From assembly GCF_002005225.1 (NCBI RefSeq), contig NZ_CP019724.1, positions 4,156,501 through 4,220,500 on the forward strand: 64,000 bases of DNA. The letters are read 5' to 3'. The notes beneath the pieces were generated by a model, which was not told the DNA's origin, did no database searches, and saw nothing but the letters and a program-made list of their open reading frames with translations. This document shows, piece by piece, positions 39,897 to 55,656 of this stretch. Every line of letters starts with the position of its first letter. Position 1 is the first letter of the stretch. This DNA is from Streptomyces pactum (GTDB lineage Bacteria > Actinomycetota > Actinomycetes > Streptomycetales > Streptomycetaceae). A program made the position numbers and the translations under genes.

Positions 39897-40102
39897 GCCG
39901 CCTGTGCCGCCTGTGCCGCCGCGCAATCGGTGCACCGGACGGTGCGGGCCGTGACCTCACCGGGTCGTCCGAGGAGGGGACCCTCCCGCACGACGCGGTC
40001 GGCGACGTGCGTGTGCTCGTGGCGGACGACGGCTCCGCAGTCGTGGCGGACACCGACGGCCGTGCCGGCCGCTCCCTGTGCGCGGTGGTCCAAGCGGTGC
40101 AT
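39893..40102 (-). CDS. 69-residue Cys/His protein between acr3 and arsO
   Basis: MHRLDHRAQGAAGTAVGVRH, DCGAVVRHEHTHVADRVVRE, a middle GPLLGRPGEV and TARTVRCTDCAAAQAAQAA. It has Cys42-type DCG, a HEHTH cluster and a C-terminal CTDC, a plausible metal-binding set. The start ATG shares bases with the acr3 stop (TGATG) and its stop TGA lies inside the arsO start (ATGA); this double overlap is strong evidence for translation. No family recognised. Confidence 0.68.
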   Translation of the reverse strand: MHRLDHRAQGAAGTAVGVRHDCGAVVRHEHTHVADRVVREGPLLGRPGEVTARTVRCTDCAAAQAAQAA

Positions 40103-41211
40103 CAGTAGTCCCTGCCGGCGGTGGTGACAGCGGACGGGGCGAACTTCTTGCGCCAGGCCAGGGACACGTAGACCAGGCCGATCAGGACGGGGACCTCGAT
40201 CAGCGGTCCCACGACGCCGGACAGGGCCTGGCCGGAGGTGACGCCGAAGGTGGCGATGGCGACGGCGATGGCCAGCTCGAAGTTGTTGCCGGCGGCGGTG
40301 AAGGAGAGGGTGGCCGTGCGGTCGTAGGCGAGGCCGATGGCCTTGCCCAGCAGGAAGGTGCCGGCCCACATCACGGCGAAGTACACCAGCAGCGGCAGCG
40401 CGATGCGTACGACGTCGAGGGGCTGGGAGGTGATGGTCTTGCCCTGGAGGGCGAAGAGGATGACGATCGTGAACAGCAGGCCGTAGAGCGCCCAGGGGCC
40501 GATCTTCGGCAGGAAGTCGGCCTCGTACTTCTCGCGGCCGAGCTTCTTCTCGCCGATGCGGCGGGTGAGGAACCCGGCCAGCAGCGGGACGCCGAGGAAG
40601 ATGACGACGTTCAGGGCGATCTTCCACATGGAGATGTCGAGGTGTTCGCCGTCGCCCAGGCCGAGCCAGCCGGGCAGCAGGTCGAGGTAGAACCAGCCGA
40701 GCAGGCCGAACGCCAGCACCTGGAAGACCGAGTTCAGCGCGACCAGGACGGCCGCCGCCTCGCGATCACCGCAGGCGAGGTCGTTCCAGATGATGACCAT
40801 GGCGATGCAGCGGGCCAGGCCGACGATGATCAGGCCGGTGCGGTACTCGGGCAGGTCCGGCAGGAAGATCCACGCGAGCGCGAACATCACCGCCGGGCCG
40901 ACGATCCAGTTGATCACCAGCGACGAGGCCATGAGCCTGCGGTCGCCCGTGACGGCGTCGAGCTTGTCGTAGCGGACCTTGGCCAGGACCGGATACATCA
41001 TGATCAGCAGGCCGATGGCGATCGGCAGGGAGATGCCGCCGATCTCGACCTTGGCGAGGGCGTCGTCGAGGCCCGGGACGGCTCGACCCAGGCCGAGGCC
41101 GACGGCCATGGCGATGAGGATCCATACGGCGAGGAAGCGGTCGAGCGTCGACAGCTTCGCGACGACGGAGGACTCCTCGACGGTCGTCGCGGGTGCCTCG
41201 GTGCGGGTCAC
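40102..41211 (-). CDS. acr3: ACR3-type arsenite efflux permease
   Basis: 369 residues, ten membrane helices (AVWILIAMAVGLGLGRAVPG, LPIAIGLLIMMYPVLAKVRY, FTAAGNNFELAIAVAIATFG, LSGVVGPLIEVPVLIGLVYV). The segment GLARCIAMVIIWNDLACGDR contains the conserved Cys needed for arsenite transport. It exports As(OH)3 driven by the proton gradient. GTG 41211 overlaps the arsR2 stop by 4 bp (GTGA). It is second in the operon arsR2-acr3-small-arsO. Confidence 0.97.
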   Translation of the reverse strand: MTRTEAPATTVEESSVVAKLSTLDRFLAVWILIAMAVGLGLGRAVPGLDDALAKVEIGGISLPIAIGLLIMMYPVLAKVRYDKLDAVTGDRRLMASSLVINWIVGPAVMFALAWIFLPDLPEYRTGLIIVGLARCIAMVIIWNDLACGDREAAAVLVALNSVFQVLAFGLLGWFYLDLLPGWLGLGDGEHLDISMWKIALNVVIFLGVPLLAGFLTRRIGEKKLGREKYEADFLPKIGPWALYGLLFTIVILFALQGKTITSQPLDVVRIALPLLVYFAVMWAGTFLLGKAIGLAYDRTATLSFTAAGNNFELAIAVAIATFGVTSGQALSGVVGPLIEVPVLIGLVYVSLAWRKKFAPSAVTTAGRDY

Positions 41212-41516
41212 GGACAGGCCCTCTTGTTCTCGGCGGCGGTACGGGCGGACTCGGCCAGGTCGGCGAACTGGCCGGCGAGCGAGGCGATGACGTCCGGGCG
41301 GACCTTGTAGTACGTGTAACGGCCGCACGGCTCCGTCTCCACGACACCTGCCTCGCGCAGCACCTTCAGGTGGTTGGACAGGTTGGTCTGCCGGGCGCCG
41401 GTCTCCTCCACGAGGTGGGTGGTGCACAGCGTCTCTTTGGCGAGCAGGGTCACGATCCGCAGCCTGAGCGGGTCCGCCAGGACCCGGATCAGGTCAGCCT
41501 CGACTGACGTCATCAT
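41208..41516 (-). CDS. arsR: ArsR-family repressor 2
   Basis: The 102-residue winged-helix repressor reads RVLADPLRLRIVTLLAKETL, CTTHLVEETGARQTNLSNHL, KVLREAGVVETEPCGRYTYY. Cys31 with Cys66 (EPCGRY) are candidate As(III) ligands, a different arrangement from repressor 1. ATG 41516 (or the next codon, 41513) has no ribosome site. CTGAT-N8-ATCAG at 41520-41537 overlaps the start region. First gene of the acr3 operon, divergent from arsC. Confidence 0.93.
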   Translation of the reverse strand: MMTSVEADLIRVLADPLRLRIVTLLAKETLCTTHLVEETGARQTNLSNHLKVLREAGVVETEPCGRYTYYKVRPDVIASLAGQFADLAESARTAAENKRACP

Positions 41517-41519
41517 GTA

Positions 41520-41537
41520 CTGATACTCTCACATCAG
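41520..41537. promoter_or_regulatory. Inverted repeat between arsR2 and arsC
   Basis: CTGAT-ACTCTCAC-ATCAG. It lies between the divergent start codons of arsR2 and arsC and may control both. Confidence 0.55.
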
Positions 41538-41608
41538 TGGCGGCTGACACCACCGGGTGCTGAAGTCACCGGTGCCTGATGCCGTCGCGAGACAAGAGAG
41601 ACCTCCTG

Positions 41609-42022
41609 ATGTCCGACAAGCCCTCCGTGCTGTTCGTCTGTGTCCACAACGCCGGCCGCTCGCAGATGGCCGCCGCGTGGCTGACCCACCTGGCCGGGGA
41701 CCGCGTCGAGGTCCGTTCCGCCGGCTCGAACCCGGGCGAGAAGGTCAATCCGGCCGCCGTCGAGGCGATGCGCGAGGTCGGCGTCGACATCTCCGCCGAG
41801 GTACCCAAGATGCTGACCGTGGACGCGGTCAAGGAGTCCGACGTCTGCATCACCATGGGCTGCGGCGACACCTGCCCGGTCTTCCCCGGCAAGCGGTACC
41901 TGGACTGGCAGCTCGAAGACCCGGCCGGCCAGGGCGTCGAGGCCGTCCGCCCGATCCGCGACGAGATCAAGGTGCTGGTCGAGGGCCTGATCAAGGAGAT
42001 CGCCCCGGAGCCGCGTTCATGA
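41609..42022 (+). CDS. arsC: Arsenate reductase, low-molecular-weight phosphatase type
   Basis: The 137-residue protein has P-loop CVHNAGR (Cys11, Arg17) and two redox cysteines Cys85 and Cys89 (MGCGDTCP), the triad of thioredoxin-linked ArsC. It reduces arsenate to arsenite for export by ACR3. ATG 41609 is taken because the family begins there; an upstream ATG 41579 adds 10 residues. The stop overlaps the start of a truncated thioredoxin-reductase gene by 4 bp. Confidence 0.95.
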
Positions 42023-42144
42023 GCGGCACCACGGACGTCCGCGACGTCATCGTCATCGGCTCGGGCCCGGCCGGCTACACCGCCGCGCTCTACACCGCCC
42101 GCGCCCAGCTCCGCCCGCTCGTCTTCGGCGGAGCCGTCTTCGCC
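42019..42144 (+). pseudogene. Thioredoxin reductase (arsT/trxB) 5' fragment
   Basis: ATG 42019 overlaps the arsC stop. The product matches the reductase N-terminus ([36 protein letters not shown]) and breaks off after about 42 residues at GGAVFASA, where the family continues EGAVTAGGAL. The rest of the roughly 320-residue enzyme is gone. It probably supplied electrons to ArsC before being cut by an insertion or deletion. Confidence 0.88.
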
Positions 42145-42495
42145 TCCGCCCGCGCTCCGACTCCGCACCCACTGCGGTGTGACCGGTCTGGACGTGCTGG
42201 TGGGGGAGCTGCAGTGACCACCACCAGCGAGCGAGGGGGCATCTCCGATGTAATCCGGCACGCCTACGGTCCAGTTCGGTCGTTCGCGTCGAAACGCCGC
42301 CGTGCGGGCCGAGCGGCCGTGCCGGGAACAGTCTGCCCGGGCGGCGCTGTTGCATCGACCGAGGCGCCGGCGCCGCGCGTGCGGGGGACACGGAGACCAC
42401 AGGGTCGTCCGTTCCTCCAGGATCCGGGCCGCGGAATCGCGGTACGCCCGCCGCTCTACTCGGACCAAGACGTATCTCTGCAGGAGGACTGCTTC
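42145..42495. other. Rearranged junction downstream of the trxB fragment
   Basis: 350 bp. A frame ends [13 protein letters not shown] then TGA at 42215-42217, which has the look of a protein C-terminus. GTG overlapping that stop would start [19 protein letters not shown] but becomes Arg/Gly-rich. Probably the scar of an insertion; nothing else recognised. Confidence 0.4.
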
Positions 42496-43329
42496 ATGAC
42501 TGACCGGCCCTTGACGCTCATGGCCGTACACGCCCACCCCGACGACGAGGCCACCGGAACCGGAGGTGTCCTCGCGCGGTACGCCGCGGAGGGCATCCGC
42601 ACGGTGCTCGTGACGTGTACCGACGGCGGTTGCGGTGACGGAGCGGGGGGTGTCAAGCCGGGCGAGCCCGGGCACGATCCGGCGGCGGTCGCCTTGATGC
42701 GGCGTCAGGAACTCCGAGCGAGCTGTGACGTCCTCAAGGTCAGCGATCTGGAGATGCTGGACTATGCCGACTCCGGGATGGTGGGCTGGCCGAGCAACGA
42801 CGCACCCGGATCCTTCTGGCAGACCCCCGTGGCGGAAGGCGCGGCCCGACTCGCGGAACTGATGCGGCACTACCGACCTGATGTGGTCGTCACCTACGAC
42901 GAGAACGGCTTCTACGGCCACCCCGACCACATCCAAGCCCACCGCATCACGATGGCGGCGCTGGAGATGACCGCGCTGACACCGAAGGTGTACTGGACCA
43001 CGATGCCCCGCTCGATGATGCAACGGTTCGGCGAGATCATGCGCGAGTTCCACCCGGACATGCCGGAGCCGGATCCCGCCGAAACCGCCGCGATGGCCGA
43101 GATCGGCCTACCCGACGATGAGGTCACCACGTGGGTGGACACCACCGCGTTCAGCGGTCAGAAGTTCGACGCGTTGGCCGCGCATGCCAGTCAGGGCGAG
43201 AACATCTTCTTCCTCAGGATGGGCAAGGAGAGGTTCGGCGAGTTCATGGGCATGGAGACCTTCGTACGTGTCCAGGACTCCACCGGCGCGGCCCTGCCCG
43301 AGAACGATCTCTTCGCCGGACTGCGCTGA
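42496..43329 (+). CDS. PIG-L family deacetylase (mycothiol S-conjugate amidase-like)
   Basis: The 277-residue zinc hydrolase has [20 protein letters not shown] (zinc ligands in HPDDE) and [14 protein letters not shown] (second histidine pair). The family removes N-acetyl groups from GlcNAc derivatives; members of this size are MshB or Mca, which act on mycothiol precursors or on mycothiol conjugates. Mca-type activity fits a detoxification island, but it could act on another sugar. ATG 42496 has GGAGG at 8 nt. Monocistronic. Full length. Confidence 0.85.
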
Positions 43330-43583
43330 TCCGCCCGTAGGACCGGCCGGGAGAGCGCGTCAACCGCACGGCGCGATCGAGCGGGTCGCGTACAGCGCTT
43401 CGGCGGTACTCCCCGCAAGGACTTCCCGCGCCTCCGAGTCGGCGGCGTGCCGCACCCCACCGCGCAGTATCGACGCGGGTCCACGCGGATCAGGAGCCCT
43501 GCCCACCCTGGCACTGGGACGACTTCGAGGTGCGCCTGGGTGGTTCGCCCGAATGTGCGATCGCAGCCCACGCAGGTGCCGTC
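43330..43583. other. Intergenic right end of island IV
   Basis: 254 bp with no supported gene. It ends with GCAGGTGCCGTC, the diverged counterpart of GCAAGCGCCGTC before the other att copies. Confidence 0.4.
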
Positions 43584-43628
43584 GCTTCCCGAGCCGAGAG
43601 CGCGAGTCGATTCTCGTCACCCGCTCCA
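43584..43628 (+). repeat. att copy 5 (outermost tRNA-Gly 3' fragment)
   Basis: 45 bases, like the tRNA 3' part but with one T deleted in the T arm (GAGTCGATTC) and two other changes. The following hairpin AAGAGGGCCCAGG/CCTGGGCCCTCTT (43631-43663) has a 13-bp stem. The last copy I can find to the right. Confidence 0.85.
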
Positions 43629-43643
43629 CGAAGAGGGCCCAGG

Positions 43644-44354
43644 TCATCGGCCTGGGCCCTCTTGCTGCCCCTGGGCGCTCGCGGTCTCGTCCGGGTGGAG
43701 GGCGTCGAGGATGAGGGTGATGCCGAAGGTGAACTCGTCCGCGTAGTCGTAGCCGGGCTTGAAGGTGTACTCGGTGGCCAGTTCGGTGAGGTGGGGGTAG
43801 GCGTCGGCGGGCATGTCGCGCAGGATGGTGCCCGCGACCTCGTGCAGCTCCGCCGCGCCGGTGAACGGCAGGCTCAGCTCCTGGAGCACGAAGCCGTAGA
43901 GGTAGCTGTCGATCAGCGAGATGGCGTGCGCGGCCATGGGGACGGAGAAGCCTCCGGCGCGCAGCGCTCCGATCACGGCGTCGTGGTGGCGCAGGGTCGC
44001 GGGGCCGGGCTGGGAGCGGGAGTCCATCAGGCCGATGGCCCACGGGTGGCGCCGGAGGACGGCACGGGCGGAGACCGCGCGGTGGCGCATGGCACTTTTC
44101 CAGTCCGTGTCGCGCGGCGGCAGGTCGATCTCGCCGAACACCGCGTCCACCATGCCGTCGAGGATGTCCTCCCTGCCTGCCACGTGGTGATAGAGCGACA
44201 TCGCCTCGACTCCCAGGGGTTCGGCGATGGCCCGCATGGTGAGCGCGGCCGACCCCTTCTCGTCCGCCACCGCCACCGCCGTACGAATCACGCGCTCGCG
44301 ACTGAGCGGGGTGCGCGCCGACGCCCCGCGCCGGCTCCTGCCTCCCTCGCGCAT
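43644..44354 (-). CDS. TetR-family repressor (TetR_C type)
   Basis: The 236-residue protein has an N-terminal HTH (RVIRTAVAVADEKGSAALTM, RAIAEPLGVEAMSLYHHVAG) and a C-terminal ligand domain of the tetracycline-repressor group (HPWAIGLMDSRSQPGPATLR, SLIDSYLYGFVLQE). Its last residues (GQQEGPGR) and stop are encoded by the att-linked hairpin, so the 3' end was probably re-made at integration. ATG 44354 has AGGAGG about 6 nt upstream. Twin operators lie 28-65 bp upstream, shared with the divergent reductase gene. Confidence 0.92.
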   Translation of the reverse strand: MREGGRSRRGASARTPLSRERVIRTAVAVADEKGSAALTMRAIAEPLGVEAMSLYHHVAGREDILDGMVDAVFGEIDLPPRDTDWKSAMRHRAVSARAVLRRHPWAIGLMDSRSQPGPATLRHHDAVIGALRAGGFSVPMAAHAISLIDSYLYGFVLQELSLPFTGAAELHEVAGTILRDMPADAYPHLTELATEYTFKPGYDYADEFTFGITLILDALHPDETASAQGQQEGPGR

Positions 44355-44381
44355 CCGTCCCTCCTTTCGTTCCCTTGACTG

Positions 44382-44396
44382 CCTTACAGCATAAGG
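44382..44396. promoter_or_regulatory. TetR operator 1
   Basis: CCTTACAGCATAAGG: CCTTA and TAAGG pair around a 5-nt centre. Located in the divergent promoter region. Confidence 0.82.
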
Positions 44397-44404
44397 CTAG
44401 CTTG

Positions 44405-44419
44405 CCTTACAACATAAGG
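44405..44419. promoter_or_regulatory. TetR operator 2
   Basis: CCTTACAACATAAGG, one base different from operator 1 and 23 bp further on (about two helical turns). It lies just upstream of the ribosome site of the reductase gene. Confidence 0.82.
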
Positions 44420-44446
44420 TCGCCAGGTCGGCGGAGGGAACACGGC

Positions 44447-45163
<717 letters not shown>

Positions 45164-45403
45164 GGGTGTCCCGGAGGTACCGGGTGGCGCTGCCCCCTGC
45201 GTGCCACCGGCCGACGGCCGGTTCACGTCGTCCTTCTCGCGTCCCGGGTGTGATCCAGGTGACCCGCACCGCACGTGGCGCCGAGGACGGCCAGACCGCT
45301 TACGGGACGAGCGACGCACCGGGCAGGCCGCGACTCGCCGCCGGACCTCGCGCCGGGGCGCGCATCGCGCCGCCTCCGCCCGATGGCGCGGTGCCGGAGC
45401 GGG

Positions 45404-46528
45404 TCACGCTCGCGGGGTTCCACCGCTGGAGAGCTCTCGGGTCCAGTAGGCCAGGGCACGTTCCGCTCCCGGCAGGGCCCGGTGACTGGACGACTTCGTG
45501 CGGAGGCCGTCGACCAGGGCGGACAGCAGGACCGCGGCCCGCTCGGGGGATCCGGCGACACCGGTCATGACGGCGTGATTGCGGCGGACGTCGATGCTGA
45601 AGTCGTCGAGGGGGCCCAGCAGATCGACCGCGTCCCCGGCCAGGTCGGTCAGGACGCCCACCAGTTGCGGCAGCCTCGCGGGGTCGGGCGCGGGGGTGGC
45701 CGGTGACTGCTCGGTGAGTTTCTTGAGCCGCTGGGCGAAGGCCGCCCGGGCGTGCAGTCCCGCCGGTGTTCGCTGGGTGCCGTGGGCCGGGTTGACCGCG
45801 AGCGCGAGGTGGCCCGATCCGTCGACGGTCTGCTGGTGGGGCGCGGGGTATCCGGCGGGGAGGAGTCCCGTCGGCGGTGCCGGGGTGGTGGGCAGGACCA
45901 CCGCCAGCCGGTCATAGAGGGTGGAGAGGCCGAGATACGGGAGCCCGTCGGGGACGCCCTCGTCGAGGATCCTGAGCAGTTCGCCGGTGAAGCCGGTAAG
46001 CGTTCCCTCGGGCGGGAACAGGGCCTTCTGGGTGCGGCCGCACGCGGTGAGCAGGTGGATGCCGTGGCTTTCCGGTCCGAGGGCGCGGCCGGAGAAGCAG
46101 CAGTCGAGAATCGCGGCCTTGTGCCTCGCCGGCGATTCACGCATCAGGGCGGCGACGTCGGCGAACGGCAGGGACGGGCTGGGATCGCCCCCGCTGCCGT
46201 ACTGGCTGGAGGGGGTGAGCGCCAGACAGAGACGGTCCTCCCGGCCGAGCAGTCCGTGGCCGCAGTAGAAGAAGAGCAGCAGGTCGACGTCCGCTTCCCG
46301 GACCATACGGCGCAGGGGGTCGAGCACTTGACGGGTGTCGGCGGGCTCCGGGACCACCTTGATCCGGCGCGGGTCGAGGACCCCCCGGTCGCCGCCGAGG
46401 GCGGCCCCGAGGGCCTGGGCCGTGGTCACGGCCTGGGGCATGGGGGTCAGCGAGCTGGGAGGGACGTGTCGGCCGGTGCCCATGAGCAGAGCGGACGCGG
46501 TGGCGGGTCGCCACACGGTCCAGGTCAT
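45404..46528 (-). CDS. Caspase-like peptidase (C14 domain)
   Basis: 374 residues. Caspase-fold domain at about 10-210 with the catalytic dyad His91 (FFYCGHGLLG) and Cys144 (AILDCCFSGRALG), and an S1-side segment LLTACGRTQKALF. The C-terminal 160 residues are a Pro/Ala/Leu-rich helical region (LKKLTEQSPATPAPD, DDFSIDVRRNHAVMTG) without a known fold. No signal peptide. ATG 46528 overlaps the stop of the EACC1-like gene by 4 bp. A bacterial caspase coupled to a conserved adaptor points to a cell-death or defence effector. Confidence 0.88.
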   Translation of the reverse strand: MTWTVWRPATASALLMGTGRHVPPSSLTPMPQAVTTAQALGAALGGDRGVLDPRRIKVVPEPADTRQVLDPLRRMVREADVDLLLFFYCGHGLLGREDRLCLALTPSSQYGSGGDPSPSLPFADVAALMRESPARHKAAILDCCFSGRALGPESHGIHLLTACGRTQKALFPPEGTLTGFTGELLRILDEGVPDGLPYLGLSTLYDRLAVVLPTTPAPPTGLLPAGYPAPHQQTVDGSGHLALAVNPAHGTQRTPAGLHARAAFAQRLKKLTEQSPATPAPDPARLPQLVGVLTDLAGDAVDLLGPLDDFSIDVRRNHAVMTGVAGSPERAAVLLSALVDGLRTKSSSHRALPGAERALAYWTRELSSGGTPRA

Positions 46529-46962
46529 TCGTCCCGTCCGGGCGGGGCGACGGCGAAGACGGACAGTCGGGCCATGACCGCGGCCAGTTGCTCCTCGTCG
46601 TCGACCGCGCCGCTCACGCGGGTGCCGTCGGGCCGCACGGCCTCGAACTCGATGCGCCGGTGGGCCGGTTGCCGTTGCTGAAGCCAGAGGAAGAACGCGT
46701 TGGTGGCCGCGGCGATCACCGCCGCGGAGGCGTTGACGATGTCCACGGCGACGGCGACATCGCCCTGTTCGCCCGGGGCGGGTGGCTCGGTGCGCAGGCT
46801 CGCCCTGCCGCCCAGTTGGTCGGAGTCGTTGATCCACTCGGCCAGGTCCCGGCTCAGGGAGTCGACCTGTGCCTGCGACTCCGCGAGCGACTCCGCTTGT
46901 GAATGCGAAAAGGTGAAGGTCAGAGCGCTTTCCGGCGCCTGGCGCGCAGGTGTTTCGGGCAT
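46525..46962 (-). CDS. EACC1-like effector-associated protein
   Basis: 145 residues. A helical N-terminal half (SALTFTFSHSQAESLAESQA) is followed by a hydrophobic helix (VAVDIVNASAAVIAAATNAF, FLWLQQRQ) and a short beta unit (IEFEAVRPDGTRVSGAVDDE). This is the pattern of EACC1, a small component found next to caspases, TIR and other effectors in predicted actinobacterial conflict systems. ATG 46962 has AGGAG 10 nt upstream. It overlaps the caspase gene. The family match is by recall, not by search. Confidence 0.65.
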   Translation of the reverse strand: MPETPARQAPESALTFTFSHSQAESLAESQAQVDSLSRDLAEWINDSDQLGGRASLRTEPPAPGEQGDVAVAVDIVNASAAVIAAATNAFFLWLQQRQPAHRRIEFEAVRPDGTRVSGAVDDEEQLAAVMARLSVFAVAPPGRDE

Positions 46963-47017
46963 GTCCGGTGGCTCCTGTTCGTCGGTCGCGTCATCACGGG
47001 GCCGGGAGTTCGGCGGG

Positions 47018-48241
47018 TCAGGCACCGGGGCTGAAGTCGCTCCAGCCGACGTCGGTGCTGCCGGCAGGTGCTCCGTGGCGGGCGGTGCGCGGCACTTCTC
47101 GTCGCGGGGCGAAGAGTTCGGGCTCACCGGGCTCCGCGTGGGGCAGGCGGAAGACGGCGGCCGCCTCGTCGGCGTCCACGAGATCGGCGAGGGCCGTCAC
47201 CGTACCCGGGTCGCTCAGCCACAACTGCCCCGCGGACGGCGCCCGGAGAAACGCGGGAACCTCCTGCCAGTAGGCGTCCCGCTGCCAGTCCCGGTTGACG
47301 CCCAGCAGATTGCCGCAGGCCACCCGGTGGTCCTCCGGGCCCTGCGGGCGTACGACGACCGCGCCGGAGCCCGTCGGCGCCACGGTGTGGCCGATGAGAC
47401 CGGTCAGGACGTCGGACAGGGGGGCCTCGCCCTCGGCGGCGACCGAGACGCGCGCCCGGTGCAACCGCCCGGTGTAACGTCGCGCGGCCGCGTCGTACAG
47501 GCCGTGTGCCTCCCGGGCGAAGGGGTCCCCCGGCACGGGGACCCCGTACAACGGGTCGGGCGGTCCGGGCGCGGCGAGTGTCGCGAACGCCTGCGCCCTC
47601 ATCGTCAGAGCCTCGGCGAGTCCGGCCGGAGCGGAGCACGCTTCGAGGCACACGCTGACCACCGTCCGCCGCGGCTCCGCGGCCAGTCGGGCCCATACCC
47701 GGTCCCAGGAAGGATCAGGAGCGTCGAATCGGGAGACCGCTGTCGCGACGCGTTCCGCTCCCCAGAGACGGGTCAAAGGCCGGCAGGTGATGCGTTTGCG
47801 GATCTCGGCGATCGCGCCCCACCGCGGTACGAACGGGGCGAGCAGCCGAGCGATCTCCGCGGTGTCCTCGACCCGGGTCCCCGTCACGTGCGCCGGGAGC
47901 TGTGCCAGGGCGGGAAGCGTGTCCAGCGCGGCCCGGACCGCGGCTGCCGGGTCGGCGCCGTACATCTGGGCGATGACGACGGCTTCCGTCCGTCCGCTCA
48001 CCGGGTCGCTGATGAACCGCAGGTCCCAGCGGGCGGTGGTGCGATCGGTCCAGAGAGCCGCGAGCCAGGCCCGCTCGGCGGCGATCCGGTCAGCTCTGCG
48101 CCGGGCTTCGGAGAACTCCGGGTACAGGCCGCCCGGCAGCGGGGCGGGACTCAGCGCGAAGGCGACGTAGGCCCAGCTCTCCCCGCTGGGGGCGGTGCGC
48201 AGCAGCACACCCCGCGCGCCCTCCGGAGCGGCTTCGGCCAT
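47018..48241 (-). CDS. 407-residue protein of the caspase operon, unknown
   Basis: No family I can name. Soluble, alpha/beta: RGVLLRTAPSGESWAYVAFA, RRTVVSVCLEACSAPAGLAE and ADEAAAVFRLPHAEPG. The last motif and the order of elements recall the N-terminal part of HerA/VirB4-like ATPases just before their Walker A, but no Walker motif follows; this is a weak similarity. ATG 48241 starts MAEAAPEGARG. It sits between a membrane protein and the EACC1-like gene, 55 bp before the latter. Confidence 0.6.
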   Translation of the reverse strand: MAEAAPEGARGVLLRTAPSGESWAYVAFALSPAPLPGGLYPEFSEARRRADRIAAERAWLAALWTDRTTARWDLRFISDPVSGRTEAVVIAQMYGADPAAAVRAALDTLPALAQLPAHVTGTRVEDTAEIARLLAPFVPRWGAIAEIRKRITCRPLTRLWGAERVATAVSRFDAPDPSWDRVWARLAAEPRRTVVSVCLEACSAPAGLAEALTMRAQAFATLAAPGPPDPLYGVPVPGDPFAREAHGLYDAAARRYTGRLHRARVSVAAEGEAPLSDVLTGLIGHTVAPTGSGAVVVRPQGPEDHRVACGNLLGVNRDWQRDAYWQEVPAFLRAPSAGQLWLSDPGTVTALADLVDADEAAAVFRLPHAEPGEPELFAPRREVPRTARHGAPAGSTDVGWSDFSPGA

Positions 48242-48367
48242 CTGCTCTTCCCTTCTCGATCCCGCTCCCACCGCTCTCCCCCGTCCCGTCGGTCCCTCCC
48301 CGGACTTGAATGACCGTCCCTCGGGCCGCACCGCACGCGGCGGTACGAGCCGACGAGCCGGTACGCC

Positions 48368-49249
48368 TCACGGTCCGGGAGGCGCACCGCCTGCCCGGGG
48401 GCCGGCTGTGGGCGGCCCCCAGGCGGGCGTGGAGTCGAGGCCCGGCGCCGGCGCGGACCTCGCCTGTTCGGCCCGCACCGGCGGCAGTCCCTGGGGGAAG
48501 GCGTAGTTGACGGGCACCACGAGCTGGTCCACCGCCGTGGCCAGTCCCTCCCGGGACGCCGCGTGCACCGCCTCCCGCATGGCCCGCACACCCTCGGTCC
48601 GCATCATGATCCGCTCGGGGCTCACGCGGCCCATGACCGACGCGAGCAGGTCCGACACGAATCCGCCGATCAAGACGTACCCGCGGCGCGAACGCCACAT
48701 CTGCCACCCGAGGTAGAGGCTCGTGCCGTACGCGAAGACCGAGACGTAGACCTGGCACTTGCCCTCCGAGAGCACCAGGCGATTGCGCACCTGCTCCCGG
48801 CCCAGTCCGGTGGCGATGACCCGCTCGGCGCGGTCGACGGGGATGGAGCGATGGGCGAGCGTGCCCGCGATGGCCACGTACGCCGAGTCGAGGGAACCAC
48901 TCCGGTCCGCCAGCAGGACCCGCCACTCGGCGATCGGTTCGACCAGGCGCATCCCGAGGAGAGTCACCCAGAAGGCGACGCCCGAGGCGATGTACGCCAG
49001 CGCGGTCATGACGGCGAATCCCTCGCCGCTGCCTCCGACCAGAAGGATGAACCCGAAGAAGAGGAGCGGCAGGAACGCCAGGAAGGAGGCGAGGAGGGCG
49101 TAGACGAAAAGCTGGAGCAGTTGCCGCCAGCCGACCGAGTCGTCGAGTTCGGTCTCCACCGGCGTGTGCCGCAGGTTCTTGTCGATGTACGCGGCGTTGG
49201 CGTCGCCGCCTCTCCATCCCGGCAGGCTGGTGTACCCGTTGTCGTTCAC
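48368..49249 (-). CDS. Membrane protein, first gene of the caspase operon
   Basis: 293 residues from GTG 49249 (VNDNGYTSLPGW, GGGGG at about 6 nt). Two adjacent membrane hairpins at about 45-105 (QLLQLFVYALLASFLAFLPL, LLFFGFILLVGGSG, MTALAYIASGVAFWVTLLGM) are followed by a cytoplasmic domain with AERVIATGLGREQVRNRLVL, another hydrophobic element (GYVLIGGFVSDLLASVMGRV) and a Pro/Gly-rich tail. Family unknown. Probably anchors or senses for the downstream genes. The next gene starts 126 bp later. Confidence 0.65.
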   Translation of the reverse strand: MNDNGYTSLPGWRGGDANAAYIDKNLRHTPVETELDDSVGWRQLLQLFVYALLASFLAFLPLLFFGFILLVGGSGEGFAVMTALAYIASGVAFWVTLLGMRLVEPIAEWRVLLADRSGSLDSAYVAIAGTLAHRSIPVDRAERVIATGLGREQVRNRLVLSEGKCQVYVSVFAYGTSLYLGWQMWRSRRGYVLIGGFVSDLLASVMGRVSPERIMMRTEGVRAMREAVHAASREGLATAVDQLVVPVNYAFPQGLPPVRAEQARSAPAPGLDSTPAWGPPTAGPRAGGAPPGP

Positions 49250-49459
49250 ATGTCCCCCTGGATGTGCTGTCCCGGATTCGGGGTGGCGGTTATCACCCAC
49301 CGTAGGTGGATGGTCACACGTCTTTGGGGGTTTCGGTACCGCACCGACCCAAGTTAGTTGGAAGCGTGCGGTTTTGAGCGGCAGACATTTAGGATGCCTT
49401 CGATGAACGTCGCCGCTCAGCAGACGTAGACGTACACCTTGGCTGTGTCGAGGTAGCGG

Positions 49460-50035
49460 TCACTCCGCCGATCTGGGGTTTTTGCGCTGGTTGACAGTGA
49501 AGCGCGCCTTCTTCTGCCGATTCCCGCACGTGTTCATCTCACACCACTTGCGAGTGCGGCTTCGACTGGTGTCGAAGAAGGCGGCTCGACAGGTCGGTGA
49601 CGCGCACAAGGCCAGCTTTCCGTCTCGTTCGCCCGCGATGACGCTGATCGCGTCGGCGGCGATCACGCCGAGGGCATCTTCCACGGAGGAAGCCGAGCCG
49701 AGCCGCCATCGCCGCTTGCCCTCGGGCGTCAGGAGCGCCGCGGCCCGGCCCCGAGCGCTGCAGTCATTGATGACCTGCACAGCAGACGCGGGGAGCGCGT
49801 CCTGGACCGCGGCCGCGGTCGCGGCGGCGTGGATCGACTCCCTCAGCTCCCGGGCGAGGTCGAGCTGGGCGGGGGTGCAGGAGTCCACGGCGAGGCCGTT
49901 CACCGCCAGCCAGTCGATGAGCCGGTGCGGCGTGGGGATGCGCTCCACAGCGTTGCCATGCCGCTCCGACAGAGTCCCCGTGAAGCTGGTCGCCAGCACA
50001 TTACCGAGGCGGAACGCAGGAAACCCAGCACGCAT
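49460..50035 (-). CDS. CGNR zinc-finger regulator (ABATE domain)
   Basis: 191 residues: a helical ABATE-type ligand domain (about 1-130, LIDWLAVNGLAVDSCTPAQL, ELRESIHAAATAAA) and a C-terminal CGNR zinc finger (CASPTCRAAFFDTSRSRTRK, WCEMNTCGNRQKK), which binds DNA. ATG 50035. Divergent from the epoxide hydrolase gene, with three phased repeats between, so it probably represses that gene and itself. 49250-49459 upstream holds nothing else. Confidence 0.9.
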   Translation of the reverse strand: MRAGFPAFRLGNVLATSFTGTLSERHGNAVERIPTPHRLIDWLAVNGLAVDSCTPAQLDLARELRESIHAAATAAAVQDALPASAVQVINDCSARGRAAALLTPEGKRRWRLGSASSVEDALGVIAADAISVIAGERDGKLALCASPTCRAAFFDTSRSRTRKWCEMNTCGNRQKKARFTVNQRKNPRSAE

Positions 50036-50045
50036 GGAACCACCT

Positions 50046-50117
50046 TAGCCGGTTGCAGCGCGACTTGGAGGCCTGCTAGAACCGTCTTAGCCGGTTCGCG
50101 ATGGGTCGTAGCCGGTT
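50046..50117. promoter_or_regulatory. Three phased TTAGCCGGTT repeats
   Basis: TTAGCCGGTT at 50046-50055 and 50088-50097, and GTAGCCGGTT at 50108-50117. Spacing 42 and 20 bp, four and two helical turns, so all lie on the same DNA face. The flanks share CGCGATGG after repeats 2 and 3. Likely operator array of the CGNR protein. Confidence 0.7.
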
Positions 50118-50138
50118 CCGCGATGGCCAGGAGGTCTC

Positions 50139-51311
50139 ATGCCCCGTCCAACCAGCGACGTGCAAGCATTCGAAGCCCACGCGTCTGACGCCGACCTCGA
50201 CGATCTGCGCGCACGACTGGCCGCGGCGCGGCTGCCGGAGGCCGAGACGGTCTGTCGCGCCGCGCCCGACCCTCGCCGATGGGAACAGGGCGTTCCTCTC
50301 GCCGACCTCGTCGATGTCGTGAACTACTGGCGCACCGGGTACAACTGGCGGTCGTTCGAAGAGCGCCTCAACCGTGTCGGCCAGTTCCGCACGACCATTG
50401 ACGACCTGGGCATCCACTTCCTGCACCGCCGGTCCGCGCGCACGGATGCCACTCCGCTGATCATGACGCACGGCTGGCCGGGCAGCATTGCCGAGTTCAT
50501 CGACGTAGTGGACGAGCTGGCGGATCCGAAGGACGCGGACGCGCCGGCGTTCCACGTCGTGGCCCCGTCGCTACCGGGCTTCGGTTACAGCGACAAGCCG
50601 GCCACCACCGGGTGGGGGACCGAGAAGATCGCGGCCGCATGGGTCGAACTGATGGGAAGGCTCGGCTACGACGAGTTCGCGGCCCACGGCGGCGACTGGG
50701 GCGGCAATATCACCACGGTTCTCGGCGGCAGGTTCCCGGCGCACGTTCTCGGCATCCACTCGACGTTCGCGGAGGCGCCGCCCGGGTTGACGACGGACGG
50801 GCTGACGGCGGTCGAACGCGGGTGGACCGAGGAGACCCGCGATTTCTGGCGCCGGCGCGCGGCCTACGCGAAGCAGCAGGCGACCCGACCGCAGACCATC
50901 GGCTACTCGCTCGTCGACTCACCGGTCGGGCTTCTCGCCTGGATCCTCGACAAGTTCGCCGAGTGGTCGGACACCGAAGACAGTCCGTTCGAGACGATTT
51001 CCAGGGACCGCGTTCTCGACGACGTCACTCTGTACTGGCTGACGCGGACCGGCGCATCGTCGGCCCGCATCTACTACGAAAGCCACAACTCGGTGGACCC
51101 CGACCTCCGGGTCGACGTCCCGTCGGCGATCAGTATGTATCCCCGTGACATCGAGAAGTGTCCGCGCCCCTGGGCACAGGAGCGGTACCGGCAGATCGTC
51201 CGATGGCGGGAGCCCGAGTCCGGGGGACATTTCCCGTCGCTGGAGGTTCCCGAGTATTTCGTCGAAGATCTGCGGGAGGGCCTCGCGGCGGTACTGGCCG
51301 CCCATCGGTGA
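50139..51311 (+). CDS. Epoxide hydrolase (EHN alpha/beta hydrolase)
   Basis: 390 residues with the N-terminal EHN domain (DLDDLRARLAAARLPEAETV, GYNWRSFEERLNRVGQF) and an alpha/beta-hydrolase core: HGWPGS oxyanion loop, nucleophile Asp in HGGDWGGNITT (about 184), two Tyr candidates for ring activation, His in GGHFPSLEVPEYF (about 362). It opens epoxides to diols in the cytoplasm. ATG 50139 has AGGAGG at 4 nt. Probably induced through the divergent CGNR regulator. Full length. Confidence 0.93.
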   Translation: MPRPTSDVQAFEAHASDADLDDLRARLAAARLPEAETVCRAAPDPRRWEQGVPLADLVDVVNYWRTGYNWRSFEERLNRVGQFRTTIDDLGIHFLHRRSARTDATPLIMTHGWPGSIAEFIDVVDELADPKDADAPAFHVVAPSLPGFGYSDKPATTGWGTEKIAAAWVELMGRLGYDEFAAHGGDWGGNITTVLGGRFPAHVLGIHSTFAEAPPGLTTDGLTAVERGWTEETRDFWRRRAAYAKQQATRPQTIGYSLVDSPVGLLAWILDKFAEWSDTEDSPFETISRDRVLDDVTLYWLTRTGASSARIYYESHNSVDPDLRVDVPSAISMYPRDIEKCPRPWAQERYRQIVRWREPESGGHFPSLEVPEYFVEDLREGLAAVLAAHR

Positions 51312-51687
51312 ACGCGGCTCGACGGCCCGGCACTCGACCACCGCCTGCTCCGGCTCGAGGCGTCGCCCGGCTCCCTCCCTCGGGAGTCTCGTCGGCAGCC
51401 CTGCACGCCGGAGCAGTACGGCCCTTACGTGGCTGCCGCCGTTCAGCTACCGCCACCCCATGGCCTGGCCGGCTCGGCGCCCACATCGTCCTCGGAGGCG
51501 GCCCGCCCGCGGTCACACCCCACTCGGGGCCGGGCCGGTTCGCGGCGAGGCGATCACGCGCCGGACCCGGCGGGGATGCACGCGAACGCCACGGCTCACC
51601 GGCCATGACGGCAATCGGTGAGAGTCCTTCGTCCCGGATCCGGACGCGTGCGCGCGAACGCGTCGGCACTCGTTGCCGCCAGAGCCC
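51312..51687. other. Intergenic region, convergent genes
   Basis: 376 bp between the convergent epoxide hydrolase and VOC genes. Several open frames but none with a credible start and composition. Nothing seen. Confidence 0.4.
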
Positions 51688-52065
51688 TCAGAGTCTGTCG
51701 AGGCGGGCCCTGAGCAGGCAGAACTCATTGCCTTCGGGGTCCGCGAGGACGTGCCACGACTCCTCGCCGCTCTGGCCGACGTCGGCCGGGCGCGCCCCGA
51801 GCCCCAGGAGACGTTCGAGCTCGGCGTCCTGATCGCGGTCGGTGGCGTTGACGTCGATGTGCAGCCGGGCCTTCCCGGTCTCCGGCTCGTCCCTGCGGCT
51901 GAGGATGATCGTCGGCTGCAGGCCGCCGAATCCCTCGCGCGGACCGATCTCGACGCAGTCCTCCTCGCGATCGAGCACGACGAAGTCCAGGACCTCGCAC
52001 CAGAACCGCGCCAGCACCTCGGGGTCGCGGCAACCGAGCACGAGCTCACTGATACGGCATGCCAT
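51688..52065 (-). CDS. VOC-superfamily (glyoxalase-like) protein
   Basis: The 125-residue protein has two beta-alpha-beta-beta-beta modules: RISELVLGCRDPEVLARFWC, LHIDVNATDRDQDAELERLL, and a closing ESWHVLADPEGNEFCLLR. His69-type and Glu C-terminal positions could hold a metal. Such proteins are lyases, dioxygenases or binding/resistance proteins (e.g. bleomycin-binding); none can be assigned. ATG 52065. Monocistronic. Confidence 0.85.
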   Translation of the reverse strand: MACRISELVLGCRDPEVLARFWCEVLDFVVLDREEDCVEIGPREGFGGLQPTIILSRRDEPETGKARLHIDVNATDRDQDAELERLLGLGARPADVGQSGEESWHVLADPEGNEFCLLRARLDRL

Positions 52066-52345
52066 GGACGAAACCTGCTTTCAGCGTGGGGACTGCCGGG
52101 GGCCGCGCGGATCCCGTGGGCTCCGCGACGAGACGACCCCGCGACCGTAGCTGGCGCGGCGGGCGGGGGCGAGGCAATTTCCGTCCCGCGAGGCACTCCG
52201 GCGGGCCGCCCGGTTGTCCGCGAACTTCCCCGGATTCGTCCGTGATCGGTAACGGACGCAGCCCGTGGGCGCCTTTCTCCGTCCTGCCAGGTGATCCCGA
52301 CGGTGTTCCAGGGCCGGCGGGCGACTACGCGAAGGCGGGGCGGAC

Positions 52346-53119
52346 ATGGCACGGCACGGTGGTGGGCGGGGCTGGTACGGCAAGGTGGTCGGGGCGGCGC
52401 TCGGGGTGACGGTGCTCGCCGTCGGTGCCTCGGTGTGGACCGCGCAGGCCGACGCCGTGGGCGGTTCGTCGCCGAAGGCCTCCGCTTCCGCCACGCCGGG
52501 CGGTGACGTCAGGCCGGTCGACGTGACCATCGCGCACGCCTCGGACAAGGGGCCGCGCGGTGTCAACATCACCATCGACGACGGTCCCGACCCCGCGTGG
52601 ACCCCCCAAGTGCTCGACCTGCTGCGTGAGTACGGGGTGAAGGCCACCTTCTGCGTGACGGGGACGCAGGCGCAGGCCCACCCCGGCCTCGTGAAGGACG
52701 TGGTCGCGGCCGGGCACCGGCTGTGCGACCACACGGTGTCGCACGACACCGCCATGGACAAGAAGTCCGAGGCCTACCAGTCGAAGGAGATCCTCGACGC
52801 CGAGCGCATGATCACCGAGGCGTCCGGGGGCGTACGGCCCCTGTACTACCGGGCACCCGGCGGGGCCTTCACCCCCTACAGCCGCCAACTGGCCGCCTCC
52901 CGGGGCATGCGCCCGCTGGGCTGGAACGTGGACACCAAGGACTTCGAGCGGCCGGGCACGGACGCCATCGTCGAGACCGTCCGGCGGGAACTGCCCAACG
53001 GGCCGACCATCCTCTTCCACGACGCGGGAGGAGACCGCTCCCAGACCGTCGAGGCCCTGCGCCGCGTCCTGCCCTGGCTCGAGGAGCAGGGCTACTCCTT
53101 CGGCTTCCCGGTGCGCTGA
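52346..53119 (+). CDS. Secreted polysaccharide deacetylase (NodB, CE4)
   Basis: The 257-residue protein has a signal peptide or anchor (GKVVGAALGVTVLAVGASVW, cut near AQADA) and a CE4 domain: NITIDDGPDPAWTPQVLDLL (catalytic Asp pair, DDGPD), HRLCDHTVSHDTAM (His-His zinc triad), RAPGGAF and GWNVDTKDFERPG. It removes acetyl groups from peptidoglycan, chitin or xylan outside the cell. ATG 52346. Convergent with the following oxidoreductase gene, 43 bp apart. Confidence 0.93.
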   Translation: MARHGGGRGWYGKVVGAALGVTVLAVGASVWTAQADAVGGSSPKASASATPGGDVRPVDVTIAHASDKGPRGVNITIDDGPDPAWTPQVLDLLREYGVKATFCVTGTQAQAHPGLVKDVVAAGHRLCDHTVSHDTAMDKKSEAYQSKEILDAERMITEASGGVRPLYYRAPGGAFTPYSRQLAASRGMRPLGWNVDTKDFERPGTDAIVETVRRELPNGPTILFHDAGGDRSQTVEALRRVLPWLEEQGYSFGFPVR

Positions 53120-53162
53120 GCCCCGGCCCGCCCCGGCCCGCCCCGGCTGCGGCGGCCGGTGT

Positions 53163-54368
53163 TCAGGCCGGCGTCCCGGTCGCCGGGGCCGGCTCCGGTG
53201 TGCGGCGCGCGACCGGGCGGCGCCGGGTCGGCAGGCCCAGGGTCGGGTTGACGACGCCCCAGGCCGCGGCCTTGCAGACGACTTCCTTGTAGCCGGCGGC
53301 GAGCCGTCCGGTCAGGGCCGCCCGGACGGCGCGGTCGTCGGCGGTGACGTACTGGATCAGGCCCTCCCTGCGGCCCAGCGAGATGCACTGGTTGAAGTAG
53401 CGGAGCGGCGCGTTCGGGAGCTTGCCGCCGGTCAGGCGGGCGGCGATCGCGTCGGCGGCCTGCCACGCGGTGGGGGTGCCCGAGGCGCACGACATCCGCA
53501 GCGGCTTGCCCCCGGGGCCCGCCACCAGGGCCGCGTCGCCGATGGCGTAAACGTCCGGGTGGGACACCGAGCGCATGGTCCCGTCGACCACGATCTGTCC
53601 CGTGCCGGTGACGTCCAGGCTGGTGGCCCGCGCGATGGGGTGGACGGCGAAGCCGGTGGTCCACACGGTCACCGCGGCCGGGACGGTGGTGCCGTCGGCG
53701 GTGGTGACGTGGTCCGCCCCGACGGCGGTGACGTCGGCGTTCTCGTGCGCGGTGACGCCGAGGGCGGCGAAGACCTTCCGCAGGTGCCGGCGGCCCTTGG
53801 GCGACAGCCAGTCACCGAGGCCGCCCCGGGCCGTGAGCGCGACGTCGAGGTCCGGGCGGGCCTCGGCGATCTCGGTGGCGGCCTCCAGGCCGGTGAGGCC
53901 GCCGCCGACCACGACCACGGGCTGCCCGGCGTCCAGACGGGCCAGGCGCTCGCGCAGCCGGAGCGCTCCCGGACGGCCGGAGATCTCGTGGGCGTGCTCG
54001 ACGGTGCCGGGGACGTCCTGGTGGTTCCAGGAGCTGCCGAGGGCGTAGACGAGGGTGTCGTACTCGAGCTCCCCGGACTCGGCCGGGCCGTTCACGCCGG
54101 TGACGGCGACCGTCCTGCGGTCGACGTCGACGCCGGTCACCCTCGCGAGCCTGAGTACGACGCCGGTGCCCGCGAACATCTCGTCGAGCGACCGGTGCCT
54201 GAGGTCCTGGCCGACCGCGACCTGGTGCATCCTGACGCGCTCGACGAAGTCGGGCTCGGCGTTGACGAGGGTGATGGCGGCGTCTTCGCGGCGCAGCCGC
54301 CTGGCGAGGCGCCCGGCGGCGACGGCTCCGGTGTATCCGGCTCCCAGGACGACGATACGGTGCTGCAT
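53163..54368 (-). CDS. NDH-2-like NAD(P)/FAD oxidoreductase
   Basis: The 401-residue flavoprotein has MQHRIVVLGAGYTGAVAAGR (FAD), VVVVGGGLTGLEAATEIAEA (NADH), VWTTGFAVHPIARATSLDVT and the FAD-binding DVYAIGDAALVAGPGGKPLR. Type 2 NADH dehydrogenases and related quinone or thiol oxidoreductases share this pattern; no clear membrane tail. ATG 54368 has AAGGAG at 7 nt. It lies downstream of an ECF41-type sigma gene, and such sigma factors usually control an adjacent oxidoreductase, carboxymuconolactone decarboxylase or epimerase. Confidence 0.88.
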   Translation of the reverse strand: MQHRIVVLGAGYTGAVAAGRLARRLRREDAAITLVNAEPDFVERVRMHQVAVGQDLRHRSLDEMFAGTGVVLRLARVTGVDVDRRTVAVTGVNGPAESGELEYDTLVYALGSSWNHQDVPGTVEHAHEISGRPGALRLRERLARLDAGQPVVVVGGGLTGLEAATEIAEARPDLDVALTARGGLGDWLSPKGRRHLRKVFAALGVTAHENADVTAVGADHVTTADGTTVPAAVTVWTTGFAVHPIARATSLDVTGTGQIVVDGTMRSVSHPDVYAIGDAALVAGPGGKPLRMSCASGTPTAWQAADAIAARLTGGKLPNAPLRYFNQCISLGRREGLIQYVTADDRAVRAALTGRLAAGYKEVVCKAAAWGVVNPTLGLPTRRRPVARRTPEPAPATGTPA

Positions 54369-54388
54369 TTCCTGCTCCTTGTCTCCGG

Positions 54389-54470
54389 TTTCTCCGGGGG
54401 TCCGGGGCCTCGGGGTCTCCGGGGTCTCCGGGGTCTCCGGGGTCCGGGGTCTCCGGTGGTCCGGTGTGTC
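54389..54470. repeat. GGGGTCTCC 9-bp tandem repeat in the leader of the oxidoreductase gene
   Basis: Units GGGGTCTCC at 54412-54438 (three perfect), a shortened GGGGTCC and another GGGGTCTCC to 54454, with degenerate flanks. It lies 21-100 bp upstream of the oxidoreductase start. Strong secondary structure in mRNA is possible. Confidence 0.75.
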
Positions 54471-54542
54471 CGGCCGCCGAAGCCCTCCGGCGGGATTCGT
54501 CCCTTGAACCGGGCAGCCCGTCGTTTCCTGACAGGGGCAGGA

Positions 54543-54558
54543 TGTGAAGCACGTCACA
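54543..54558. promoter_or_regulatory. TGTGA-N6-TCACA inverted repeat
   Basis: TGTGAAGCACGTCACA, between the sigma gene (ends 54565) and the oxidoreductase. A CRP-like shape, but the actual regulator is unknown. Confidence 0.45.
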
Positions 54559-54564
54559 TGGGGG

Positions 54565-55509
54565 TCAGAAGGCGTGGAACAGGGGTTCGCCGTGATCGGT
54601 GGACGCCCAGCGCCGGGTGGCGCGTTCCAGCTTGTCGGGGTTGACCTGGTTGCGGAACCCGGCGATGCCCTCGGGCGTGACCTCCAGGCACATGACGCCG
54701 ATGACCCGGCCGTCCACGACCGCCACGACGGCGGGGTCGCCGTTGGCGGTGGCGGCGTAGATCTCCGGGGAGCCACCGGCCAGGGCGCGCTTGGCCTTGC
54801 CGGGCTTGAACAGTCCGCGCAGGAACGTCGCCACCGCGCGGGCGCCCTCGAACGCCTTGGCCCGGGCCGGGACCTTGCCGCCGCCGTCGCCGATCGACAC
54901 GGCGTCCTGGGTGAGCAGACGTACGAGCGGTTCGGTGCGGCCGCTGGTGGCCGCCGCGAGGAACTCGTCGACGATCCGCCGGGCGGCGGCCTCGTCGACC
55001 TCGGTGCGGGCCCGGCCCTCGGCGACGTGCTTGCCGGCGCGGTGGAAGATCTGCTGACTGGCGGCCTCGGTGATGTCGAGGATGCCGGCGATCTCCCGGT
55101 GCGGGTAGCCGAACGCCTCGCGCAGGACGTACACCGCCCGCTCGCCCGGCGAGAGCCGCTCCAGCAGGGCGAGGACCGCGAAGGAGACCGATTCGCGCTG
55201 CTCGGCCGTGTCGGCCGGGCCGAGCATCGGGTCTCCGGCGAGCAGCGGCTCGGGCAGCCACTGGCCCACGTAGGTCTCGCGCCGCGCGCGGGCCGAAGTG
55301 AGCTGGTTGAGGCACAGGTTGGTGAGAACCTTCGTCAGCCAGGCCTCGGGAACCTCGACGCGGGCGACGTCGGTGGCCTGCCAGCGCAGGAACGTCTCCT
55401 GCACGGCGTCCTCGGCCTCGCTCGCGGAGCCGAGGAGGCGGTAGGCGATGGCCTCCAGGCGGGGCCTGGAGGCCTCGAACCGTTCCACGTCGTTCATGGT
55501 CAGGGCCAT
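54565..55509 (-). CDS. ECF41-type sigma factor (SigJ-like) with SnoaL C-terminus
   Basis: 314 residues. Sigma2 (RLEAIAYRLLGSASEAEDAV), sigma4 (LSPGERAVYVLREAFGYPHR, EIAGILDITEAASQQIFHRA) and a C-terminal SnoaL-like domain with the ECF41 marks WLPEPLLAGD, SIGDGGGKVPA and VNPDKLERA. In this group the extension, not an anti-sigma factor, controls activity. ATG 55509 (MALTMNDVERFEASRPRL). The target is likely the oxidoreductase gene just downstream. Confidence 0.94.
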   Translation of the reverse strand: MALTMNDVERFEASRPRLEAIAYRLLGSASEAEDAVQETFLRWQATDVARVEVPEAWLTKVLTNLCLNQLTSARARRETYVGQWLPEPLLAGDPMLGPADTAEQRESVSFAVLALLERLSPGERAVYVLREAFGYPHREIAGILDITEAASQQIFHRAGKHVAEGRARTEVDEAAARRIVDEFLAAATSGRTEPLVRLLTQDAVSIGDGGGKVPARAKAFEGARAVATFLRGLFKPGKAKRALAGGSPEIYAATANGDPAVVAVVDGRVIGVMCLEVTPEGIAGFRNQVNPDKLERATRRWASTDHGEPLFHAF

Positions 55510-55656
55510 GGCCCGGATCCTAGCCGCCGCGGTGAGCACGGGCCGTGGCGCGGGCGGGCCCGGGCGGGTGACCGGGCGCCCCGGCGGTTCCGTCCGCCGA
55601 GAGGGCGCCCGGACGGCGGCAAGGGCCCCGGCTCGCGGCCCAGGCCCTTGCCGGGA

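Follow-up and report, generated by a model that had tools for sequence, protein, structure and literature searches.

A four-gene operon in Streptomyces pactum joins an EACC1 adaptor and a caspase to a gene pair that recurs elsewhere with other outputs. The operon lies in what we call the window, the whole stretch of 64,000 nucleotides that was analyzed (NCBI RefSeq assembly GCF_002005225.1, contig NZ_CP019724.1, positions 4,156,501 to 4,220,500 of the forward strand); the genome is 8.55 Mb in a single contig. The pair encodes a membrane protein (memb) and a protein of 407 residues (p407) that is predicted to resemble the N-terminal domain of VirB4, and in other loci this recurrent core carries a TIR domain or an ATPase. 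The coupling of EACC1-caspase to this core appears to be new: in the open-licence literature searched, neither the memb/p407 pair nor its coupling to EACC1-caspase was found. We give an even chance to the reading that the operon encodes a membrane-anchored, modular suicide or defense device, in which a motor-less VirB4-like scaffold is combined with interchangeable conflict effectors, here a caspase.

All four genes are on the minus strand. The memb gene (48368-49249; 293 aa, GTG start) is followed by the genes for p407 (47018-48241; no ATPase domain), the EACC1 adaptor (46525-46962; 145 aa), and the caspase (45404-46528; 374 aa). Their coordinates place 126 bp between memb and p407, 55 bp between p407 and EACC1, and a 4-bp overlap between EACC1 and caspase, in agreement with the layout given in the first-pass annotation of this DNA. 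The GC content by codon position of all four open reading frames (ORFs) has the pattern of real genes. All four are under purifying selection; the ratios of nonsynonymous to synonymous substitution rates (dN/dS) against three to four close relatives range from 0.25 to 0.66 (memb 0.25-0.35, p407 0.36-0.47, EACC1 0.28-0.37, caspase 0.31-0.66). The closest copies are on three named contigs, all from Streptomyces, with protein identities of 72-87%.

Three architectures of p407 loci

We compared 21 intact p407 loci, which are the rows of the p407 alignment; the locus from genome G598 (L069) and a decayed locus (L070) were excluded. Separate EACC1 and caspase genes follow p407 in eight of these (the window, L011, L018, L019, L020, L059, L061, and L062). 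In seven, p407 is fused to a HerA/VirB4-like ATPase (L012, L013, L014, L015, L057, L058, and L060), and in the remaining six it is fused to a TIR domain (L063-L068, all in a second actinobacterial family, f18). The memb gene is directly upstream of p407 in 20 of the 21 loci; in L019 the contig ends before that point (20/20 testable loci). Whenever p407 has no fused domain, the EACC1-caspase pair is present (8/8). The first-pass annotation had proposed looking for the same four genes in other genomes, with their failure to co-occur as a refutation, and for related sets next to other effectors. The four-gene set does recur, giving eight caspase-type loci including the window, and the memb/p407 pair also recurs with TIR or the HerA/VirB4-like ATPase replacing the caspase.

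The models for EACC1 and caspase were built partly from loci of this group. L018 and L061, which were absent from model building, match both models; for L059 and L062, the match to the EACC1 model is independent. The four genes are kept together in seven of the eight caspase-type loci, the eighth being cut by a contig end. Within four-gene loci the caspase identity falls to about 43% (L011), and the L061 caspase was found by profile.

The fused domains were identified with Pfam profiles. DUF87 is above its cut-off in 4/4 scanned p407-ATPase proteins, and all seven ATPase fusions have the P-loop and EEAHR motifs. TIR_2 is above its cut-off in 5/5 scanned p407-TIR proteins; the sixth was only aligned. 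In the p407 tree, the ATPase forms are a single clade (100/100), and the caspase and TIR forms fall into two groups each.

The TIR form resembles the actinobacterial TIR/EAD1 conflict proteins described by Kaur et al. 2020 (eLife, PMC7159879) in its TIR_2 domain and in the EAD1-TIR genes adjacent to it in two scanned loci; it differs in that the TIR domain is fused to p407, a domain unnamed in the cited parts of that paper. These EAD1-TIR genes are convergent with the p407-TIR gene (L066:6353-7297 and L067:6409-7287, both in family f18). The ATPase form has a likeness to HerA-containing defense systems: in one p407-ATPase relative, the ATPase domain matches the PADLOC HerA and mad8 models, but these models do not cover the p407 N-terminal domain or the membrane partner.

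The EACC1 adaptor and the caspase

The EACC1-caspase half of the operon is the already known System 4 of Kaur et al. 2020, as set out in the cited parts of PMC7159879, because both proteins exceed the cut-offs of curated profiles. The 145-residue protein scores 51.9 bits with the Pfam EACC1 profile (PF19953), above its cut-off of 23.6; the first-pass annotation had called it EACC1-like and had set a failed profile search in advance as a refutation, and the call stands. Judged by hydropathy only, it has one hydrophobic segment (residues 69-87, Kyte-Doolittle mean 1.89). The caspase matches NF047832 ("caspase, EACC1-associated type") over residues 12-212 with 158.2 bits, above the curated cut-off of 140, which bears out its earlier identification; it also matches the PADLOC caspase model (29.3 bits). 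The catalytic dyad is intact, as had been noted from the sequence, with His at residue 91 and Cys at residue 144, and both residues are kept in 8/8 caspases from the loci with separate EACC1 and caspase genes. The C-terminal part, residues 213-374, is alignable among the same eight caspases and has no recognized family in Pfam or NCBIfam, apart from a TetR_C_6 match below its cut-off (15.5 against 27 bits).

In the account of System 4 given in PMC7159879, a membrane sensor helix is predicted to activate the caspase, and the caspase proteins often bear an additional effector domain. The window pair shares with System 4 a 5' EACC1 gene whose product has one transmembrane-like (TM-like) helix, a 3' gene with an N-terminal caspase, and the actinobacterial host; the adjacent 5' EACC1 to 3' caspase order is that of the window genes, which overlap by 4 bp. 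In contrast to System 4, the window pair sits behind memb and the VirB4-N-like p407, which are unmentioned in section 33 of that paper. The C-terminus of the window caspase shows no recognized variable effector domain, a feature that many but not all System 4 caspases have.

A second EACC1-like gene in the same genome (L017:1656-5208, within C1:4270000-4280000) scores 22 bits, below the cut-off. It adjoins an ORF of 1084 aa with a caspase-like match and resembles an ordinary System 4 pair. A further caspase-like match in this genome, at L016:6950-7165 (within C1:4995000-5008000), is weak, with 35% over 88 aa.

The membrane protein and p407

Hydropathy places two hydrophobic segments of memb within residues 53-98 and a third, weaker one at residues 192-210. 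The protein also contains a conserved RAMREAVHxAxREG part and a tail rich in Pro and Ala. It has no Pfam match above cut-off and none at E<10 in NCBIfam or PADLOC, and p407 matches nothing at E<10 in any of these three libraries. In PHROGs, P0003 had no match, and the memb proteins and P0009 had at most chance-level matches. Among PDB sequences, neither the p407 profile nor the memb profile had a match below E 0.02, and memb aligned with hhalign to one VirB3 sequence gave no match either. Since neither protein has a profile of its own in the four scanned libraries (Pfam, NCBIfam, PADLOC, and PHROGs), searches with newly made profiles could turn up further effectors.

The AlphaFold model of p407 resembles the N-terminal domain of VirB4/TrwK, and the window protein, whose last residue is 407, has no C-terminal RecA/HerA ATPase domain. 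We therefore predict from the model that p407 is a VirB4 N-terminal-type scaffold domain without a motor. Compared with the VirB4 ATPases of type IV secretion systems (T4SS; TrwK of R388, PDB 7o43 and 8rtb), window p407 lacks the ATPase, and the likeness to the VirB4 family is seen in the modeled fold but not in a sequence-profile match. The core subunits of ESX/type VII systems (6umm, 6sgz, and 7b9f), which we take to be EccE, match the p407 model much more weakly than VirB4 and in a partial alignment. The suggestion of the first-pass annotation that memb and p407 are sensor and relay is thus refined, p407 being modeled as a motor-less scaffold-type domain. Near the window operon, where few neighboring ORFs were profiled, no other T4SS gene was recognized by eye.

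The ATPase form and its toxin-like neighbors

Including the decayed L070, there are eight ATPase loci. In five of these, the gene after the ATPase encodes a product that starts with MSDR; the first 300 residues of these products have a high content of Asp, Glu, Pro, and Ala, and their C-termini differ. These acidic-leader genes (L058:4141-5655, L013:10906-12819, L014:4795-6237, L015:10483-11763, and L070:8428-10407) start within the ATPase frame, with an overlap of 4 bp in L013, L014, L015, and L058 and of 20 bp in L070. The L013 leader protein has a C-terminus of the calpain-type protease family (PF00648, 35 bits) and its gene is followed by a DUF6406 gene; the L058 leader gene is followed by a DUF6086 gene, and the leader proteins of L014 and L015 have short tails only. 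The leader genes look like polymorphic toxins, and their small DUF6406 and DUF6086 neighbors are candidate immunity genes. The MSDR leader motif is absent from the ATPase loci L012, L057, and L060, from 13 relative caspase and TIR loci, and from positions 40001-56000 of the window.

Locus L070 (6193-8447) is a decayed second copy of memb and p407-ATPase in genome G374, which also has an intact copy; its memb is cut at position 105, and its p407 has an internal gap. An identity of the ATPase form with the cmd operon was rejected, as cmd is a different, six-gene cluster in the description cited (PMC2782261).

Distribution

Genome searches with the p407 profiles and with memb scored the best 4 to 13 first-look candidates per genome, and because only these were scored, their counts are lower bounds. 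Of 246 genus genomes searched with the single p407 sequence, six, counting that of the window, had relatives. The three p407 profile searches, which scored the four best candidates per genome, gave strong matches as follows: for the genus, at least 12 in 392 genomes; for the class, at least 9 in 394 (three from the genus and six from family f18); and for the phylum, at least 2 in 396. The genome of the window is among those counted each time. In the genus search 23 genomes matched, and 11 of these with weak, partial matches (E 4.8e-5 to 9.7e-4) were not counted as strong; in two such weak loci, L071 and L072, BLAST detected none of the five proteins memb, p407, EACC1, caspase, and ATPase. Also not counted as strong were G531 in the class search and seven weak genomes among the nine that matched in the phylum search, where G000 had one additional weak match. 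Named contigs supplied three of the p407 loci, and one of these coincides with a genus genome.

With memb as query, matches were found in 8 of 199 genus genomes and in 8 of 325 class genomes. All eight of the latter also have p407, which in G598 is present only as broken pieces. Two memb relatives that stand alone (L099:6926-7798 and L100:7561-8547) are flanked on one side by a dnaK-grpE-dnaJ-hspR-like cluster and on the other by clpB, with gene names assigned by eye, and also adjoin LuxR-type regulators; this setting hints at a stress role for the memb family too. Among plasmids, caspase relatives occur in 28 records and relatives of the ATPase domain in 43, none covering 80% of the query. 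A match to memb in a viral contig (L108) comprises 42 residues among phage-like genes and was taken as chance.

Proposed mechanism and alternative explanations

TIR and caspase domains are known to act through induced proximity, which makes an oligomerizing scaffold plausible as a switch. In the device that we propose, memb would anchor the VirB4-N-domain-like scaffold p407 at the membrane and form a complex with it. The position of the motor, which in VirB4-like proteins is the ATPase, would be taken over by an effector, here the adjacent EACC1-caspase pair. A trigger sensed at the membrane would alter the scaffold or bring about its assembly (candidates are phage entry, incoming DNA or toxin, and envelope damage), and EACC1, which has one TM-like helix, would pass this change on to the caspase. 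The clustered caspases, activated by induced proximity, would then cut themselves and cell proteins, so that the hyphal compartment is killed or arrested. We infer a role in defense or programmed death, which fits the effector types and the patchy spread. If true, bacterial caspases and TIRs would be tied to one common and hitherto unnamed membrane scaffold shaped like a domain of a secretion motor, suggesting that parts of a secretion apparatus had been turned into a death switch. It would also provide a testable candidate activator of EACC1-caspases, a step left as a prediction in the cited parts of Kaur et al. (PMC7159879).

Several observations weigh against this device. The window caspase is under the cut-off of the general Pfam caspase model Peptidase_C14 (14.2 against 21.4 bits), as is the L061 caspase (18.7 bits), and the SEWAEFE motif, kept in L064 and L065, is absent from 4/6 TIRs. 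The hhalign comparison of the p407 profile with a single TrwK sequence gave a probability of 0.1%, so the link of p407 to VirB4 is structural only, and the likeness comes from one predicted model and one aligner. A single origin was not rejected for the caspase form or for the TIR form (approximately unbiased (AU) test, p 0.13 each), and for this reason the output may have been exchanged only about twice; the number of exchanges is small and uncertain, and a double gain of the caspase is not shown. Three of the eight genus genomes with memb (L099, L100, and L101) show no p407 in 16-17 kb. With the queries used, memb/p407 was not found on plasmids, in viral contigs apart from the chance match, or in phages, where the query was one memb relative only.

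Memb and p407 could instead be a small translocator of toxin-like substrates, with the caspase and EACC1 processing or guarding the substrates and the cell itself not being killed. Such an export accessory would agree with the overlap of ATPase frame and acidic-leader gene in five of the eight ATPase loci, with the calpain-type protease end and the DUF6406 and DUF6086 neighbors found there, and with the exported alarmone synthetase that, according to the cited part of PMC12691689, is encoded beside TrwB/TrwK/TrwI-like genes in another Streptomyces. We consider it unlikely, however, since the caspase and TIR forms have no motor, the MSDR leader is missing from their loci and from the window operon's surroundings, and the TIR fusion is more easily explained as an output domain. 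Programmed death during development, or control of sporulation in hyphae, would be in keeping with the occurrence of EACC1 systems mostly in multicellular bacteria (650 of 671 organisms; Table 1 of Kaur et al. 2020, PMC7159879) and with the effect of the VirB4-like membrane operon cmdABCDEF on Streptomyces sporulation reported in the cited part of PMC2782261. A function of this kind in place of defense is quite improbable given that the presence in the genus is patchy (strong matches in at least 12 of 392 genomes), unlike that of a core developmental gene, that TIR and ATPase alternatives exist, and that the ATPase form is associated with toxin-like genes.

The EACC1-caspase pair was described as a two-gene system in the account of Kaur et al. 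(PMC7159879), and no domain directly connects p407 with the caspase; the two upstream genes might then be unrelated neighbors by chance. This is very unlikely, as the four genes stay together in every caspase-type locus except the one at a contig end, down to the lowest caspase identities, and no p407 lacking a fused ATPase or TIR is without the pair. A broader form of the suicide or defense device, which we regard as doubtful, is a new class of immune or death platform derived from a two-gene VirB3/VirB4-like export core. Its motor-bearing form would handle polymorphic-toxin-like substrates, and the motor-less forms, carrying interchangeable TIR or EACC1-caspase killers, would be membrane decoys or sensors that cause death when an invader attacks or exploits the route of export or of DNA or toxin transfer.

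Upstream region

Because all four loci that could be aligned ahead of memb are close relatives (window included), conservation in this region is weak evidence. The GTG or ATG start of memb is kept in 4/4 of them, and the ribosome-binding site GGGGGAC ahead of it (49252-49258, minus strand) is invariant. A conserved block of the type GTGTGACC...CGGTGGGTRAT (49292-49319, minus strand), 43-70 bp upstream of the memb gene, is promoter-like by eye only.
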